Positions 30,576-56,038 of a DNA stretch of 64,000 nt are shown piece by piece. The position numbers and the translations under genes are program-made. The notes beneath the pieces were generated by a model. That model worked only from the letters and a program-made list of their open reading frames with translations, was not told where the DNA came from and did no database searches. This DNA is from Siphonodentalium dalli (taxonomy: Eukaryota; Mollusca; Scaphopoda; Gadilida; Siphonodentaliidae), in contig CP136066.1 in NCBI GenBank assembly GCA_032622095.1, positions 91,471,319 through 91,535,318 of the forward strand, in the 5' to 3' direction. The stretch's first letter is position 1. Every line of letters begins with the position of its first letter.

Positions 30576-30793
30576 CTGCTACGACATTGCATTTTGACAG
30601 CCAAGAATATTTCAAGATCAGAATGCCGGAGGAATCGCACACGGAAGCTGAGGACATATCTCTGCGCTTCAATACAATGCGACAGAACGGACTTCTGTTT
30701 ATAACCTCATCATCGTCTTCTGCTGACATCATGGAACTCTACCTCTCTTCAGGATCACTGACACTGAATATTAATGTTGGAGGCGGAAGAAAG
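30576..30793 (+). CDS. NRXN: Alpha-neurexin exon E2: first half of LNS4
   Basis: The exon starts in phase 1 after ttacttttcag and completes an Ala codon with the last base of E1. It reads AATTLHFDSQEYFKI, then HTEAEDISLRFNTMRQNGLL and MELYLSSGSLTLNINVGGG. This is the N-terminal half of LNS4, whose vertebrate counterpart also begins directly after EGF-B and carries the HTEAED motif. It ends at Lys before gtaatg, in phase 0. In vertebrate neurexins the alternative splice site 3 lies at this point of LNS4, so the junction with E3 is a natural place for an alternative insert. Two near repeats of the bases GAAGGGTGGAGTCA follow the donor and lie in the intron. Confidence 0.92.
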
Positions 30794-32092
30794 GTAATGA
30801 AGGGTGGAGTCAGGGGAGCTTCCGTTTATGAAGGGTGGAGTCAAGGGAGCTTATTTTTATTCCAAAGAAAAAAATATTTGTAGTTTGGTTATCCTACTGA
30901 CCCAATCTTTAACTCCCCTTAGCTTGAAGTTATTTGTCTCCCGACCTTCTGAAAGAAAAGGGGGACTATAGAAACGGGCTCTGTCCGTCCGTTCGTCCGT
31001 CCGTCACACTTTTGAGTACCTTCATGGTGTAATCATCTCCTCCTACAGATTTCATCCCAGAGGTTTGAAACTTCAGAATATTGTTGCCCATATATTGAAT
31101 ATGTGCAACATCTATATAGATGACGGAAAAAATATTTTTTACAGAGTTATTAACCCTTTTCGACTTAGAAAATTTCAACATTTGTTATAATTTTCTGTAT
31201 GAGGGTACCTTCATGGTGTAATCAACTCCTCCTACAGTTTTGATCGTAGATATTTGAAACTTCAGAGTATTGTTACCCACATATTGGAGATGTGCAACAT
31301 GTATATAGATGACGGAAAAATCATTTTTTTACGGAGTTATTAACATTTTTTTTAATTTCTTTAACAAAGCAGCATCGACTTGCCACGTTGTCGTGGGACA
31401 TTGTGGTCGGCTGACCTTTTATTTTTCGTGGTTTTCTAGAAAATATTAGAAATTTTTGTAAATGTTTTACATAAAAAATGAAAATCACTTTTCAATGTCA
31501 CTCAATGGGTTGATTTATCAGTGAATTCATTGTGTTTATTACAGTTATTACAGTATTCAAGTCTTGCCATTTTCTCTGGGCCGCAAATGACTCGTCCTGG
31601 CAGACTCGTTGATATACAGCAAAAATAAGCTCAACCTGAATACAGATTAGGGGATATAGAAACGAACAAAAGGGAAAAAGCAACTGAAAACAATGTTAAT
31701 TTTAGACTATAGATACTTCCCAGCAGATGAGGTCTAAGCAGAATGAGGTCCCCAGAGGGTGAATTTGGTGAAGCTAGCCCACTCTAATCTGCAGACCTCA
31801 TTCTGCAAGTTACAGATGCCCTATTTCAAGGCTTGACACTGCTCCAACAATCTCTTGTGTGGTTCACTGAGTTCAGGATGTGTCCTGGCGGGTCAGATCC
31901 TATCTATCCCAGCAGATAACCCTTTTTATACTAAAAGGATTCTCCAACTCAGTCATAAAAGTATACATTGGAATGGGCTATTGTTAATCTGGAGGGGTTT
32001 TCAGGAAAAATAAGCAGAAGGTATCCAATTTATTGGTGGGAAATTTTCAGATAATAAGTTTAATAATGACCTATGGTCGTTTGTTGAACTTA

Positions 32093-32350
32093 TTATCTGA
32101 ACACATCCCAAGGTATAACTACTCATCAATGAGTGTTTAGTATAGAAAGGGTTAACCCTGTCACCACTAAATAGATTCTTATCTGAACACATCCCAAGGT
32201 ATAACTACTCATCAATGAGTGTTTAGTATAGAAAGGGTTAACCCTGTCACCACTAAATAGATTCTTATCTGAACACATCCCAAGGTATAACTACTCATCA
32301 ATGAGTGTTTAGTATAGAAAGGGTTAACCCTGTCACCACTAAATAGATTC
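32093..32350. repeat. 86-bp tandem triplication of a TTAA element end
   Basis: Three near-identical units starting 'ttatctgaacacatccca' at 32093, 32179 and 32265. Each holds the right end of a family C element, the TTAA, and the first bases of the next element ('ccctgtcaccactaaatag'). Confidence 0.88.
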
Positions 32351-32887
32351 TTCTGCATCTGTACCTGTAATGTTTCCGTGCAGAAGACATTGCTGGCTGT
32401 AGGCACCGGAAGTGTTTTTTTTGTGAGCACGGGTTATATATTACTTCTTGCCAGCCATCATCTCACTTTCATTTTGAAGTCCCACTTGACTTCAAGTACT
32501 GTCACTAACTCACTTGACATACTATACAGATACTGCACATACGTTTACGAACAGTCAAAACACTATTAACAAGTGTCCCTGGAAAGCTATCAATTTATCA
32601 AATAACTTTGGTGTTCCAAAAGTTTCCCACACTCACTTGACATTATAGAAATACTGCACATTCTTAGGCACTTGAAGTCTTTATAGTGACCAATAAAAAC
32701 TGTTAAAAAGTGTCCCCGAGAAGCTATCAATTAACTTTGGTCTTCCTCCTTTATTGTGGTCATGATGCAACAATATCCCATTCAAATGATTCCATTGCAT
32801 TGGCGGTTGTCGTTATGTATCCATATCATCAGAAGTTTGTGTGTGCTTAGTGTTTCTGTTGGTGCCTTTAAAATTATTTACTGTAAT

Positions 32888-33064
32888 ATGGCACAAATTG
32901 ATGAAGAAAGTAACACAGATTCTTCCGAAATTTATGATTCTGATGAACTTATAGACATTCATTCGGCACCATTCAATAATACCTGGAATTCATTATCCGG
33001 ACAACCTGTGTGTTCTCCATCAGATTATCTGCCTGGACCACACCTACTACATCAGGCTGACTAG
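32888..33064 (+). pseudogene. Possible transposase N-terminal fragment
   Basis: A frame with an acidic start, MAQIDEESNTDSSEIYDSDE, stops after about 58 codons. Such acidic openings occur in piggyBac-type transposases, and the many TTAA-flanked elements nearby need such an enzyme. No catalytic domain is present, so this is a weak suggestion. Confidence 0.2.
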
Positions 33065-33096
33065 GTAGACATCTAGGATGCTGCTGTTTACTTTAA

Positions 33097-33325
33097 CCCT
33101 TTGAGTGCCAGGGGCCGATCTCATCGGCCCTAAACCTACAAAATAAGTCTGTTAAAGAATATAAGAATAAATTATTAAAATTGTAAAAACAATAAAAAAA
33201 AAATTGTTAGGCCAATGCATTCTCTTATATATGCGAGGCGACCTATGGTCGACTCGCATATATAAGAGAATGCATTGGCACAGGGTATATGGGTTGATAC
33301 AAAAATCGACCTGGCACTCAAAGGG
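33097..33325. mobile_element. TTAA-flanked element (family T2) containing a B hairpin
   Basis: TTAA at 33093-33096 and 33326-33329. Terminal inverted repeats CCCTTTGAGTGCCAG are perfect over 15 bp. Inside, at about 33208-33280, sits the 'ccaatgcattctcttatata' hairpin module. Directly after it (33330-33400) comes a partial family B element. Confidence 0.8.
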
Positions 33326-34490
33326 TTAACACTGTCATGTCTGGAGCCTCCTGAGATTTTGCGAAAACCCTGTGCCAATGCATTCTCTTATATATATTAT
33401 AATTAATAAGAACTTCCAAAGAAATTTAAATGGTTTTATTGTTTGCATTCTTTATGCCAGCGTTATTTCTCTTTGTTTATATTGATGATATTTATTAATA
33501 TTATTTCTGTCTGCATGAATGTCTCAATGTTTTATCAGATCTCAATGGAATTGGGTGGAAATATTCAATACAAGGACAGCTTTAAAAAAAAGAATCTATT
33601 GATAGGATCGAAAATGGTCACAGTCCTGTGACTTCTAGTGAGGGTATGCTCTCCCTAAGCGGTATGCCATATGGGGGTATGCACTGGGCAACAGCCCATC
33701 TCTTGTTTTTTTTAGAGCAGTTCAGACCTTAGTTACGAAAATACATAATTTAAAGGCAGCACGATTCAATGCACTGTGTTCTTTATTTTTGTGTAAAAGT
33801 TACTCCAAATGTCAATAATATCAGATTTGAACAAACTTCAGGACCTCAGCCCAGCCTGGGTCTGACATTTGCAGAATCAGTTCTGCCTAGGCCACATACG
33901 CACTAAATTTCCTGTTTCTCAGGAATGCATGCATGGTCTCAAAACCACTAATGTGCAACCTTTTTATTCATGATCAATTTGTCGGGATCACCAAATAATC
34001 TCCTTGGAACTCATTCTGCTTAGGCCTCATCTTCTGGGAAGTATATATTGTCTCAAATTAACATTGTTTTTAGTTACTTTTTCCCTTCTCTTCAGTTTCT
34101 ATATCCCCTAAATTTGCAGAAGATAAAATGCATAATTGAGGTGACTAATGTGTGAACATATCAACTTCAACTGAGGAACTTCAATCTGATCCTAGGTTTC
34201 CCATAGCAGTTGAGATCTATAAAGCAGAAAGAGTTACCAGAGGATGAATTTGGTAATGCCTGCCATGCGGGATAGCGTCACAAAATTCACCCTCTGGGGA
34301 CCTCATTATGCAAATCTCAGACACACTATTTCCAGACTTGACCTCAGCATTAAACTGAAAACAGTAAAATGTTTCCACTGTCAGAATTAAGTCTATGGAC
34401 AATTTTAACACTGTTATAACCTATTGGCAACTCACGCGTTGTAAAGCTTAGTTTCAGGCGGTCTATTAAAGTTAACTACAGACCCACATA

Positions 34491-34752
34491 CAGTATAAAT
34501 GCCCTAAATAATCGACTCCTTATCCACAGCAGAATTATGGGTAATTTTTCAGGATTTAGTCAGAAATATGGCTTGTTGCCATTCATCGGAATGCTCTCAC
34601 TGAGAGCTTTCAATGGCAGCAAGCCATATTTCCAACTCTCACTGATCGAGATCTTTCCGATGAATGGCAACAAGCCATATTTCCGACTAAATCCTGATAA
34701 AATACCCATAATTCTGTTGTGGTTAAGGAGTTGATTATTTAGGGCATTAATG
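34491..34752. mobile_element. Family A palindromic element
   Basis: TA-flanked foldback with an extra internal inverted segment. The flanking 14 bases TACAGACCCACATA occur on both sides (34477-34490 and 34753-34766), longer than the TA duplication expected for a mariner-type element. Confidence 0.75.
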
Positions 34753-35004
34753 TACAGACCCACATAGTGGATAGATTGTGGGTCGGAAAAGTTGCCTCCG
34801 GCAATCAGAACTCACTATTAGTAGGCCCAAGATAAAAGTGTCCAATTGAAACGATTTACATGACACGATTGGCATAATTTGGGGGAAGCATGCTTTCTTC
34901 TAAGAAATGAAATTTTGATGAGTTTAGGATAGACTTGGTATGTCAGTATGTTTACAGACTGTGTGTTCAGGGTGATTGACACCTTTATTTTAAATATTTT
35001 GCAG

Positions 35005-35113
35005 GCACTAACAGTTGGTCGTGTGCTGAATGATAACAGATGGCACACTGTTTACATCAAGAGACGGGCTCAAGCCATTGAGCTCAGCATTGACGGTGAT
35101 AGGCCAGTCACCG
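35005..35113 (+). CDS. NRXN: Alpha-neurexin exon E3: middle of LNS4
   Basis: A 109-bp exon, phase 0 in and phase 1 out, with acceptor tattttgcag|gca and donor ccg|gtatgt. It encodes ALTVGRVLNDNRWHTVYIKR followed by RAQAIELSIDGDRPVT. The LNDNxWHTV motif followed by a basic strand and an xLSIDG strand is the standard centre of a laminin-G fold and matches vertebrate LNS4 (LNDNEWHTV). Too short to show as an open frame of its own, it was found by scanning for the missing LamG centre between E2 and E5. Splicing to E5 directly, or through the candidate exon E4, keeps the frame. Confidence 0.92.
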
Positions 35114-42388: not shown

Positions 42389-42524
42389 CAGTAATGCCCT
42401 AAATAATCGACTCCTTAACCGCAGCAGAATTATGGGTAATTTTTCAGGATTTAGTCGGAAATATCCTGAAAAATTACACATAATTCTGCCGTGGTTAAGG
42501 AGTTGATTATTTAGGGCATTACTG
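42389..42524. mobile_element. Shortened family A palindrome
   Basis: 136 bp, starting after TA with CAGTAATGCCC and ending GGGCATTACTG. The centre of the palindrome is deleted compared with the 213-bp copies. Confidence 0.78.
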
Positions 42525-43185
42525 CATGTAGTGCCAATGTGTAGTGACACTACAGTACTGTCGACCATCTCATGGATGAGCTCTACATGGAATAGCAGTA
42601 CAGCTCTCAGCCAATCAGAAGGCGGGAAAGTCATATGAGATACAATATTCATACATTGTGGACTAGCTGTTATCAGGGAGAAATCACAAAGGTTGAAGTT
42701 CAATTTACGCTCCCTCTAGGCTGGTCCCTAGCAAGCCATGAAATAGTGACGTCGCAAAAATCTATGTCTTATTTAGCAGTATTAAAGATAGTCTCGTACC
42801 TGGCTCAGATGCTCTGCTCACTGTCCCGTGCAAGTTCACGACGTAACGCTTCCACCGGAGCATTACACCTTAGCATAGAGGAGGCTGAGTGCTAAGAACG
42901 AGTCCATGCAGCAGTGAGATAGAGTTACGACATGTCGTTAAACCATATTACTCTGATTTGTGATGTCGTAAAATGATATTACTTGGATTTGTGATGTAGT
43001 AAAATGATATTACTCAGTTTAAGGGCAATTTGAAGCGATATCCACCTAGTCCAATAACAAGCAGTTCTGGGCAAAAACGTCATATCTAATTATAAATAAC
43101 CATACATATTCCATGTTCCAAAAGCTGTGGTATGCCCGAATGTTAGAACAATAATCGTTGTACGTTGATACCTTCTACCTTTCAG

Positions 43186-43260
43186 ATCTTCTCACGGGAT
43201 CAGACACACTCCTCAATTTTAACTGCATTATGTTAGGATCCGTAGAGTCCGTTATGGCCG
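43186..43260 (+). CDS. NRXN: Candidate neurexin cassette exon E4 in LNS4 (SS4-like position)
   Basis: A 75-bp stretch with a strong pyrimidine-rich acceptor (ccttctacctttcag|at) and donor gccg|gtaatg. It is open in the only frame compatible with E3 and E5 (phase 1 to phase 1) and encodes 25 residues including LLNFNCIMLGSVESV. Because 75 is divisible by three and both E4 and E5 begin with bases at, exon skipping also keeps the frame and the junctional Asp. Without E4, E3 and E5 give an LNS4 of normal length when aligned with vertebrate LNS4. E4 would therefore be an insertion between the SIDG strand and the LTFDHLEVG strand, where LNS6 carries splice site 4. It contains one unpaired cysteine. 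It could also be a chance match in a 20-kb interval; transcript data would decide. Confidence 0.55.
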
Positions 43261-43322
43261 GTAATGTTTCTTATTCACCCTAGAACGTGTTTTGTCTTCT
43301 GTGCTCCTCTCATCTGTCTTAA

Positions 43323-43768
43323 CCCTTTCTTTACTGAATGGATTCTCCCATTCAGTTATAAAAGTTTACATTGGAATGGTCTACTATTCATATGGAGGGA
43401 TGTTCTGGAAATATAAGCAGATGATTGATAATACAAGTTGAGAAGGATTCCTTATTCTTTGTTCAGGAAATAGTGAAGAAAAATTTTGATTAATTGGTAG
43501 GAAATGTTCACATAATACTTTAAACATGTCTGTTTGTTGAATTTATTATCTGAAAACTTCCTACGGGAACTTCTCAATGCGTATTACATGTAATGCCCTA
43601 AATAATCGACTCCTTAACCACAGCAGAATTATGGGTAACTTTTCAGGATTTAATCGGAAATATGGCAACAAGCCATATTTCCGACTAAATCCTGAAAAGT
43701 TACCCATAATTCTGCTGTGGTTAAGGAGTCGATTATTTAGGGCATTACTGTACATAGTAAAGAAAGGG
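43323..43768. mobile_element. TTAA-flanked family C element with nested family A palindrome
   Basis: TTAA at 43319-43322 and 43769-43772. The outer element reads 'ccctttctttactgaatgg' to 'catagtaaagaaaggg'. A family A palindrome (43587-43750, TA on both sides) is inserted near its right end. The outer element starts only 60 bp after the donor of candidate exon E4. Confidence 0.82.
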
Positions 43769-44398
43769 TTAACTGCCATAAGTTGAATTGTCTGTAAAGT
43801 TTGTAGAATGTGAGATTTTAGGTTCATTTTGTTGTGTGTTTGTATTCATTTTGGCATGTTGTCTCAGAATGATTTGGTATTTATGTTAGAAATGATTCTG
43901 CTTTTAGGTCAAAAGATGAGGTTCCCGCCACTGGACATTCGATTTGAAGTGAATTCATGCTAAATGTAAAAAAATTCTACACCACATGCTTCACAGTTTA
44001 GTCAGCATGATCATAAACCAAACAATAAAAGTTTGAATTTTTTACAATATGGGGAAAGAGTTGTAGGAGGGGTTCATAAACCAGATGATTAAATTACTGT
44101 GGCCTTACCGTGATATTTTCTAACCCTCCATTAACAGGTGAGGAGACTGCTGCGACTTTCTGTAATATATAAATGAATATGCCCTTAAACTATTGGCATT
44201 ATCGTGGTTGACTAGATGAAAGATAACCACATATATATCATTTATTATGGTGAACGTGTGTCAGCGCAAAATGTCCTGGCTACTCAGTATGTTTTAATTT
44301 ATGTGACTGATCCGTTGTCTTGTTCTGTTCTGATTTTTATCTCTGTGAAGTTCATGACGTAAATAAAAACGTGACTTTCTTCTGATTTCAGTTATTAA

Positions 44399-44790
44399 CC
44401 CTTTACCCAACAAACCGACCAAAACCGGCCAAATAAAGCTTCAACAGCCTAAAATATCTTCGGTCTGTCTCAATAGAACCATACAAATATGGATATCATT
44501 GGAACCGGCTCCTTGACCACATTGTGATAGTTACAGTTATGCCCTGTGCCAATGCATTCTCTTATATATGCGAGTCGACCATAGGTCGCCTCGCATATAT
44601 AAGAGAATGCATTGGCCTAAAAAAATATTTTTTTAACACTTTTTACCATTTTTTCTTACATTCTTTAACAATTTTATAAGTTTTAATGTGTTAAGCCAAT
44701 GCATTTCTCTTATATATGCGAGGCGACCTATGGTCGACTCGCATATATAAGAGAATGCATTGGCACAGGGCCCTTCTGTTGGGTAAAGGG
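44399..44790. mobile_element. TTAA-flanked element (family T3) with two B hairpins
   Basis: TTAA at 44395-44398 and 44791-44794. The ends CCCTTTACCCAACA match as inverted repeats over 14 bp. Inside are two hairpin modules (about 44548-44617 and 44696-44764) in mirror arrangement around an AT-rich spacer. Confidence 0.82.
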
Positions 44791-45837
44791 TTAATTAAGT
44801 TTTGCAGTCTAATCAGTCTCAATGTAACGGTTTGTGACGATGATAATTTACTCATGATGTTTCCTATATTCACCTGCATCGAAAATGAATGGTTGAATCG
44901 GATAATTTCACTGAACTTTAAATTTATACGGCACTTTGGTTGGATGTGAAATGTTGCCCCCTGATTCGATTCGAGTTTGGATACAATGAAAAACATATTC
45001 GCAGGAGCCAACACAAAGGTGAAAAAACCAATGTTATTATATGCTCTCCATGCTGGGCTGTTGAAACACTCATAGCAATTTATCTTGCTGAACACAGGTC
45101 TATTAATTTAAATTGGCAGCTGAGCACAGAGCATAACTCTTCTATATAAATTCTATGTATTGACTCCCATTGGCAGAATCATTTATGTTTGTTTATCAGT
45201 GTGGGTTTACTCACAGGGTACAACCAATGTTTTTTTAAGTTACGACTACAATAGTTTATTCTTAATGTATTCAACCCTTTCATGACGGGAGCGGTGCTGG
45301 TGCAACATTAAATATCCTGCGCCAGTGCATTCTCTTATATATTCGAGTCCCGCATAGGGAGTCTCGCATATATAAGAGAATGCACTGGCTTACCACGGCA
45401 AGGTAAATAGTGTTAGGCCAATGTAATCTCTTATATATGCGAGGCTCCCTGTGGTAGACTCGCATATATAAGAGAATCTGTTGGCACAGGGTTTTCGCAA
45501 AATTTCTTCAATATATTCTTTCGAATTCACTGGTGAGTCATAACATGTCAATGAATTAGGGCAACTTTGCTGGTACGTGTCATTATGATTGTGGTGTTAG
45601 AAATGGTTGTGCTTCTAAAATCAAAACATAACTTTCATAATCATAATTCATCCTATGTTCGTCCTTCGATTCATCAGTGTAAATAAATTTCATTCTTTGA
45701 TTTCAACCCAAGACATGCATAAAGTGTCAATCATGTAGGGTTAATAACCTTGTTGTTTTCATAAGTTTTAATTCTCTTTGAGACAGTGGCCAGTATCATC
45801 GGCTGCCCGGGTTACGTCACAGAGACGCCAGAGCTAT

Positions 45838-46665
45838 TTATTTTAATGTTAATCATATCAGGGTCGATATTTCCATTTAATTTAATGTTAACCGTATCAG
45901 GGTCAATATTACTCATTATTTTAATGTTAAACATATCAAGGTAAAAATTACTATTTATTTATGTGCTAATAAAATCAGGGTCAATATTACCATATAATTT
46001 AATGTTAAACATATCAGGGTCAATATTACCCTTTATTTTAATGTTAATCATATCAGGGTCAATATTACATTTATTTTAATGTTAATCATATCAAGGTAAA
46101 AATTACTATTTATATGTTAATAATATCAGGGTCAATATTACCATATATTTTAATGTTACCGGTAATCGTATCGGGGTCAATATTACTATTCATTTTAATA
46201 TTAATCGTATCACGGTCAATATTACCATTTATTTTAATGTTAATCTTATCCGTGTTGATATTACCATTTATTTTAATGTTAATCATATCAGGGTCAATAT
46301 TACCATTTATTTTAATGTTAATCATATCAGGGTCAACATTACCCATTATTTTAGTGCTAACCATATCAAGGTAAAAATAACTATTTATTTAATGCTAATA
46401 ATATCAGGGTCAATATTACCATATAATTGAATGTTAAACATATCAGGGTCAATATTACCCTTTATTTTAATGTTATCATATCCGTGTCGATATTACCATT
46501 TATTTTAATGTTAATCATATCAAGGTAAAAAATTACTATTTATTTATATGTTAATAAAATCAGGTCAATATTACAATATATTTTAATGTTAATCGTATCA
46601 GGGTCAATATTACTATTCATTTTAATATTAATCGTATCAGGATCAATATTACCAATTATTATATG
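45838..46665. repeat. 39-bp minisatellite, first block
   Basis: About 20 copies of a unit containing 'taatcatatcagggtcaata' and 'ttaccatttattttaatgt'. Because 39 is 13 codons, both strands stay open over parts of the array and spell a 13-residue repeat. That is a by-product of the period. Confidence 0.92.
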
Positions 46666-55282: not shown

Positions 55283-56038
55283 ATCGTGTCCCAGGTGCCA
55301 TCAAATCGTTGACTTTTGATCACCTCGAGGTTGGTTACATGATGCGAGACAATAACGAGTTGGGCCGACACATTCCATTTGTCGGATCCATGCAGAATTT
55401 TGTCTTCAACAAAAACGAGTTCTTTGAAATGGCGAAATCAGAAACCATCGACAACATAGAGGTTACAGCAAGATTTGATTCTCACGAACCCGTCATTAGA
55501 AATCCAGTGACCTTCAAATCCATTCATTCCTATGCAACGCTCACGACACTAAATGCTTACGATGATTTTTACATCAAATTCTTCTTTAAAACAACTCAGG
55601 ATGATGGATTATTGTTCTACAATAGTGGTAAAGAGAGCGATTTCTTTGCTATAGAATTGAATCGCGGCTTCTTGTTCTATGTTTATAATATGGGGGCGGG
55701 ATCACAGTCAATCCAAGTCAACACGCTGAAGCCAGTAAATGATAATAAATGGCATGAAGTCTCACTGCAGCGGATTTATGATGACCAGCAGTTAATACGC
55801 GTCGATAGCTACTCGCCGACAGTGGATCATATGAAGGGCAATGCACGACATTTTGATCTTGAAGGACCTCTCTATGTGGGCGGAGTTAAGAAGACAATGT
55901 ACTACTCATTGCCGAAGCTCATCCAATCACATAATGGTTACCAAGGCTGCATGGGATCTTTTGATTTCAATGAGTTCCAGGCCGATCTGATGACAAATGC
56001 TCTCAGCAGAGCACCGACCGTCGTTGAGGGATGTAATG
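55283..56038 (+). CDS. NRXN: Alpha-neurexin exon E5: end of LNS4 and all of LNS5
   Basis: A 756-bp exon, phase 1 to phase 1, with acceptor ataattccag|at and donor aatg|gtaaga. The first ~70 residues finish LNS4 (SLTFDHLEVGYM, then HIPFVGSMQNFVFN). LNS5 follows from NPVTFKSIHSYATLTTLNAY through FKTTQDDGLLFYNSGKESDF, LKPVNDNKWHEVSLQR, DLEGPLYVGGV and NGYQGCMGSFDFN to VVEGCNG. LNS5 keeps its two disulphide cysteines. LNS4 lacks the two cysteines that vertebrate LNS4 has shortly after the GHLSGL-like strand. That comparison is from memory. The open frame continues a little past the donor into the intron. Confidence 0.94.

Follow-up and report, generated by a model that had tools for sequence, protein, structure and literature searches.

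Neurexin splice inserts help to determine which partners a synapse binds. Up to six splice sites are given for vertebrate alpha-neurexins in the available part of a 2025 review, according to which extensive neurexin splicing appears to be exclusive to vertebrates (PMC12665717), and twelve splice sites are described for honeybee neurexin I in the available part of PMC2570956. At SS4, the insert reduces the affinity for neuroligin, and cerebellin binds LNS6 only when the SS4 insert is present (PMC6856630, in part). In LNS2 of Nrxn1, residues I401, T405, and Y407 lie in strand beta-10, which makes a sheet extension with neurexophilin-1 (PMC6856630, in part), and the beta-10 epitope of LNS2 is also given in PMC4183798 (in part). 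Mammalian LNS4 co-precipitates neurexophilin-4, and the available part of the review describes invertebrates as lacking neurexophilins (PMC12665717). In the neurexin literature searched, including the available parts of PMC3084293 and PMC11258300 and with subscription papers mostly outside reach, we found no report of an insert at the place described below.

The window analyzed here, the whole stretch of 64 kb at C6:91471319-91535318 (+ strand coordinates) in a genome of 2.23 Gb and nine contigs, carries part of a neurexin gene. The joined product of two + strand exons, E3 (35005..35113; ALTVGRVLNDNRWHTVYIKRRAQAIELSIDGDRPVT plus the first base of a split codon, ending in phase 1) and E5 (55283..56037; the remainder of LNS4 plus LNS5, with a phase-1 start at 55283 and the acceptor ATTCCAG), matched LNS4-LNS5 of bovine neurexin-1 alpha (3qcw_A) with an E value of 2.1e-96, which bore out the assignment of the gene and of the domain in an earlier note on this DNA. 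The N-terminal half of LNS4 (ATTLHFDSQEYF...INVGGGRK) was placed at 30576..30793 on the + strand by its match to bovine neurexin-1 LNS4 and by its borders, including the donor AAG|GTAATG. Exons of LNS1 and LNS2 were found by tblastn upstream of the window's LNS4, and LNS6 of the same gene lies downstream (E 6e-84). Also downstream, L025:7999-8151 resembled the transmembrane and cytoplasmic part of neurexin (51 aa aligned at 45% identity, E 1.1e-13). The order of the LNS domains is as in neurexin-1, and the sequence identifies the host gene as an alpha-neurexin and the domain with E3 and E5 as its LNS4. The LNS4 encoded here (30576-56037) is without the vertebrate disulfide pair, with EMAKSETIDNI in place of DLCKNGDIDYC, and is without any cysteine.

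In the 20-kb intron between E3 and E5, the earlier note had pointed to a 75-nt candidate cassette exon, E4 (43186..43260, + strand), as a stop-free segment of phase 1-1. The letters confirmed this description: read with the last G of E3, E4 translates without a stop as DLLTGSDTLLNFNCIMLGSVESVMA; it is bordered by TGATACCTTCTACCTTTCAG just 5' and by GTAATG just 3'; and with AG/GT borders, a length divisible by three, an open frame, and equal phase on both sides, it has the anatomy of a cassette exon, the reading frame being kept whether it is included or skipped. Use of the upstream E5 acceptor gives VT-D-RVPGAIKSLTFDHLEVG, gap-free against the bovine MT-G-QMAGDHTRLEFHNIETG, and E3 plus E5 aligned with bovine neurexin-1 LNS4 without a gap. 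Since E3 and E5 alone already form a full LNS4, the 25 residues of E4 would be an insert, in agreement with what had been claimed. A second in-phase AG at E5, with a start at 55295, 12 nt further on, could make the E3/E5 junction four residues longer or shorter.

The splice signals of E4 were described in the earlier note as good. The putative acceptor region (43163..43185, + strand) consists of a branch-point-like CGTTGAT (43163-43169), which begins 23 bases upstream, a pyrimidine tract, and the AG; the next AG in the 5' direction begins at -41, and these are signals in the letters, which by themselves are no sign of use. When sites were scored with generic frequency matrices and compared with other sites taken from both neurexin genes of this genome (the second is described below), the acceptor of E4 (3.95) fell in the middle of the range of 11 other acceptors (-3.5 to 6.5), with five above, one of them the alternative AG of E5, and six below. 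The donor GTAATG (43261..43266, + strand), however, was the weakest of the nine scored, at 2.31, and the LNS4 exon ending at 30793, which has the identical GTAATG, reached 2.86. This donor counts against the use of E4 as a cassette and in favor of an unused remnant. Past the donor, the frame stays open for 7 intronic codons before a stop, and four splicing-regulator-like motifs showed no enrichment near E4.

The composition of E4 resembles that of an exon. It has a GC content of 45%, compared with 51% in E3 and 43% in E5; the intron has 36% and the flanks 34%. The codon score of E4, 2.13, from a score trained on 1162 codons of both neurexin genes, was above 20 of the 43 coding chunks (which are the training codons themselves) and was equalled by 226 of 3274 null stretches. 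The E4 peptide occurs at one place in the genome. Membership of E4 in a repeat was rejected, the six other matches of the query 43100-43360 all beginning at about 43312 (query base 213), outside E4; a poison exon was rejected as well, because the exon is in frame. By eye, palindromic, MITE-like elements were seen near E4 in the intron at approximately 42390-42530, 43590-43755, 44540-44765, and 45325-45490, and an AT-rich imperfect tandem repeat on a TTAATGTTAATCATATCAGGGTCAATATTACC unit occupies approximately 45840-46480 of the window and continues onward. In a single scan of viral_contigs for a relative of E5, one stretch fitted a pattern and none encoded a relative.

We then estimated how often splice quality of this level arises by chance, by scanning for intervals of 30-200 nt that are open in phase 1, divisible by three in length, and above thresholds set just below the scores of E4. 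E4 was the sole such interval on the + strand of the window. On the + strand of 264 kb (the window plus 20 loci) there were five, E4 included; two were taken as true neurexin exons, one of LNS6 (L023:5296-5400, + strand, by tblastn) and one encoding the N-terminal part of LNS2 (L032:7763-7909, + strand, by eye), and the remaining two were short orphans, encoding 13 and 12 residues. Three more intervals lay on the - strand of the same 264 kb. The number of false intervals expected in the 20-kb intron is thus 0.15-0.23, or 0.31 if both neurexin exons are counted as false. By itself, this uniqueness is moderate evidence for E4, and the case becomes strong because of the likeness of E4 to LNS4.

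This likeness was measured over 19 residues, from the first residue and without gaps, in a register that had been set after an earlier free alignment. In this register, the bovine LNS4 strand gave a score of 20 with E4 and likewise 20 with E5, and E4 compared with the start of E5 gave 18. The controls were 4630 stretches from the + strand of the window and 20 loci, each preceded by AG and free of stops in phase 1 over 19 codons, with true exons kept in. Of these, one matched the bovine score of E4, three matched the E5 score, and none matched both or their sum. Peptide shuffles reached the scores of E4 in fractions of 0.00017 (bovine), 0.00023 (E5), and 0.00002 (joint), and among 1563 loose pseudo-exons on both strands, those as good as E4 numbered none, one, and none for bovine, E5, and sum, respectively. 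The earlier note's remark that E4 resembles a LamG strand was thereby found to hold beyond chance. The free local alignment that came first was less clear-cut than these tests, with shuffle fractions of 0.003 for bovine LNS4, 0.066 for E5, 0.004 for the LNS3 of the same gene, and 0.14-0.87 for six other LNS strands. In the fixed register, E4 scored -29 against its own LNS6 and -24 against the second neurexin gene, values that are uninformative because the loop lengths differ.

At the DNA level, 27 of the first 54 bases of E5 (55283..55336, + strand) are equal to those of E4 in a gapless comparison, and 34 over 75 bases; the 54-base length was picked after the alignment had been seen. A match of 27 or more of the 54 bases to the E5 start was found at none of the 1237 further positions preceded by AG in the two LNS4 introns, at 1 of 24061 positions of any kind, and in none of the 1563 loose pseudo-exons, and it was reached in 6 of 20000 dinucleotide shuffles and in 0 of 20000 base shuffles. 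By codon position, 7, 11, and 9 of 18 bases are identical, which is no sign of protein-level constraint, 18 codons holding little information. E4 thus lies in register with the E5 start beyond chance, as a partial tandem duplicate should. The likeness does not extend into the intron 5' of the acceptor, where 9 of 20, 13 of 40, and 17 of 60 bases are identical, which weighs little because none would be expected after an old duplication. From these comparisons, E4 is very probably homologous to the LNS4 strand, and it is most likely an old, diverged partial duplicate of the E5 start. The earlier view of the insert as a loop insert therefore gives way to a better explanation, a diverged copy of the strand element with which E5 begins.

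Profile comparisons added less. With Pfam Laminin_G_2, the domain scored 67.2 bits with E4 (to profile position 98), 67.6 with the E5 start (to 97), 63.8 with neither, and 66.2 with one shuffled E4 (to position 84); the gains from E4 are small, and our case is not based on them. With E4 present, the phmmer match to bovine LNS4 continues straight across E4. For the whole LNS4, the score was 79 bits without E4 and 72.3 bits with it, a drop that counts against the cassette reading. LNS4 has no cysteine without E4 and one in E4, so that the free cysteine noted earlier would be the only one in the domain. A single cysteine in an extracellular domain is unusual, and this, too, counts against the cassette reading.

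The site of E4 had been called SS4-like, and this was correct in outline only. The E3/E5 junction and SS4 are both phase-1 introns in the stretch that links the VD/ID strand to the L-F strand after it; however, counted by eye from the conserved D, the junction comes after 6 residues in LNS4 and after 10 at SS4 in LNS6, and thus the sequence places E4 near SS4, approximately four residues earlier and in a different column. E4 is not an insert of LNS6 in the SS4 column, as canonical SS4 is. LNS6 of the host gene has its own phase-1 intron exactly at SS4 (NPT|G-EQLTIFN), of approximately 10.8 kb. No vertebrate-like SS4 peptide was detected in the LNS6 intron, the best match (E 0.064) lying after the strand exon, outside the SS4 intron. 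In the SS4 intron, a 36-nt phase-1 candidate mini-exon, AFSWILDQVTDK (L023:4395-4430, that is, C6:91549395-91549430), has good splice scores, and its end bears only a weak resemblance to that of the vertebrate SS4 insert (shuffle fraction 0.078; 9 of 264 control stretches equal). When LNS4 is aligned to bovine LNS2 without gaps, its junction falls at T405|G406, within the segment matching beta-10, and by this match the site of E4 would correspond to a partner-docking surface of a sister domain.

A second, divergent neurexin-like gene was found at C4:249030001-249170000 (L009, L010, L012, L014), in which the LNS4-LNS5 exon, the counterpart of E5, is 28.5% identical. Its LNS4, too, is interrupted at the matching place by a phase-1 intron, of approximately 1.36 kb. 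A search for an E4-like segment in this gene found none (best E 1.1; L009, L010, L014).

Based on the anatomy and the likeness, we slightly favored the reading that E4 is a genuine exon spliced as a cassette. We proposed that the acceptor-proximal part of E5 may have been duplicated long ago to give E4, or that a single ancestral exon start may have given rise to both. E4 would be skipped in the ordinary transcript, which would encode the standard LNS4, and would be included in some cells or stages, where it would put a second copy of the loop plus L-F strand right after E3, in the beta-10-like edge-strand region. A single structural position of the domain would then have two candidates in tandem, and the unused copy would be displaced as a surface insert, which might alter the face that LNS4 offers to partners, in a manner comparable to SS4 in LNS6. 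Since the two copies are about equal in their fit to the family, the core place might go to either one, with the other projecting from the edge. In addition, as E4 holds the sole cysteine of LNS4, its inclusion might permit a disulfide-linked dimer or impair folding. A more far-reaching version, which we consider doubtful, is that LNS4 folds with either of two interchangeable tandem strand copies while the other is looped out on the docking edge; if true, splicing would select among conformations of LNS4, beyond adding a loop, and neurexins would have gained a novel type of splice site through the partial duplication of an exon.

The main rival to cassette use is an unused relic, in which an ancient copy of the E5 start sits in the intron and either has ceased to be spliced or never was, the frame and the splice sites being remnants. 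The weak donor is consistent with this, as are the lack of a detected E4 in the divergent gene and the fact that the likeness to E5 is as much at the DNA as at the protein level, third codon positions being no more changed than the others; but a neutral copy with half of its bases changed should have lost its frame, acceptor, or donor, and E4 keeps all of them, equals E5 in its score against bovine LNS4 (20 for each), and retains an exon-like GC content and codon score. We thus regarded the relic as a tangible possibility, though less probable than a spliced cassette. That E4 is instead an intronic pseudo-exon with a chance resemblance to a LamG strand would fit the 0.15-0.31 intervals of its splice quality expected per 20-kb intron, and E4 may have been picked for its LamG look in the first place. 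However, in the register used for E4, none of the 4630 and none of the 1563 controls equalled it against E5 and bovine LNS4 together, and although the E3-E5 intron holds 309 AG-preceded open stretches, even so many tries make a match as good as that of E4 unlikely; chance is accordingly very improbable.

Finally, E4 could be the start of a unit spliced in mutual exclusion with the LNS4 part of E5, for which its LamG profile fit, about equal to that of the E5 start, would speak, or an alternative last exon yielding a soluble neurexin that ends in LNS4, which would agree with the early read-through stop and with the AATAAA/ATTAAA hexamers at 44024, 44088, 44362, and 44432. Against the former, our search of the E3-E5 intron gave no plausible second exon for the rest of LNS4, the best matches being E 0.83 with the gene's own query and, among the matches listed, E 0.53 with the bovine one, both on the - strand; against the latter, the closest polyA-like hexamer lies more than 700 bases downstream. 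Both forms together seem quite unlikely, and a cassette derived from the E5 start remains the reading that we prefer.

As such a cassette, E4 has no exact counterpart among the inserts compared here. SS3 shares its domain, and we take its place to be ahead of the LNDNEWH segment, which in the host gene would put it close to the intron 30794-35004 and away from the E3-E5 intron. It is the LNS4 site encoded by exon 11 of NRXN2 (PMC3622022, in part). In honeybee neurexin I, the 72-bp alternative exon 11 (PMC2570956, in part) is, like E4, in frame, of similar length, and within an LNS domain, and it occurs in an invertebrate; however, it sits in LNS3 and is supported by RT-PCR and cDNA, whereas E4 sits in LNS4 and is known from genomic sequence. 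The neurexophilin-1 docking strand beta-10 of LNS2 (PMC6856630, PMC4183798, both in part) contains the position matching the E3/E4 junction, although there it is a binding surface and not a splice site. If E4 is used, it would add a new variant to the known neurexin splice inserts, and, if the host is an invertebrate, as is assumed here, a further case after the honeybee against vertebrate-exclusive extensive neurexin splicing. An LNS4 insert copied from the domain's own strand would, if true, show one origin of new splice sites. The closest relation is to SS4 in LNS6 (PDB 3mw2, 2r1b, 3mw3), with which E4 shares a phase-1 intron in the VD-to-L-F stretch, an insert of similar size (30 residues in SS4, 25 in E4), and a full domain upon skipping; in contrast, E4 lies in LNS4, approximately four residues earlier, and its peptide is unlike that of SS4 (3'-anchored score -18). 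E4 itself resembles the strand that follows it.
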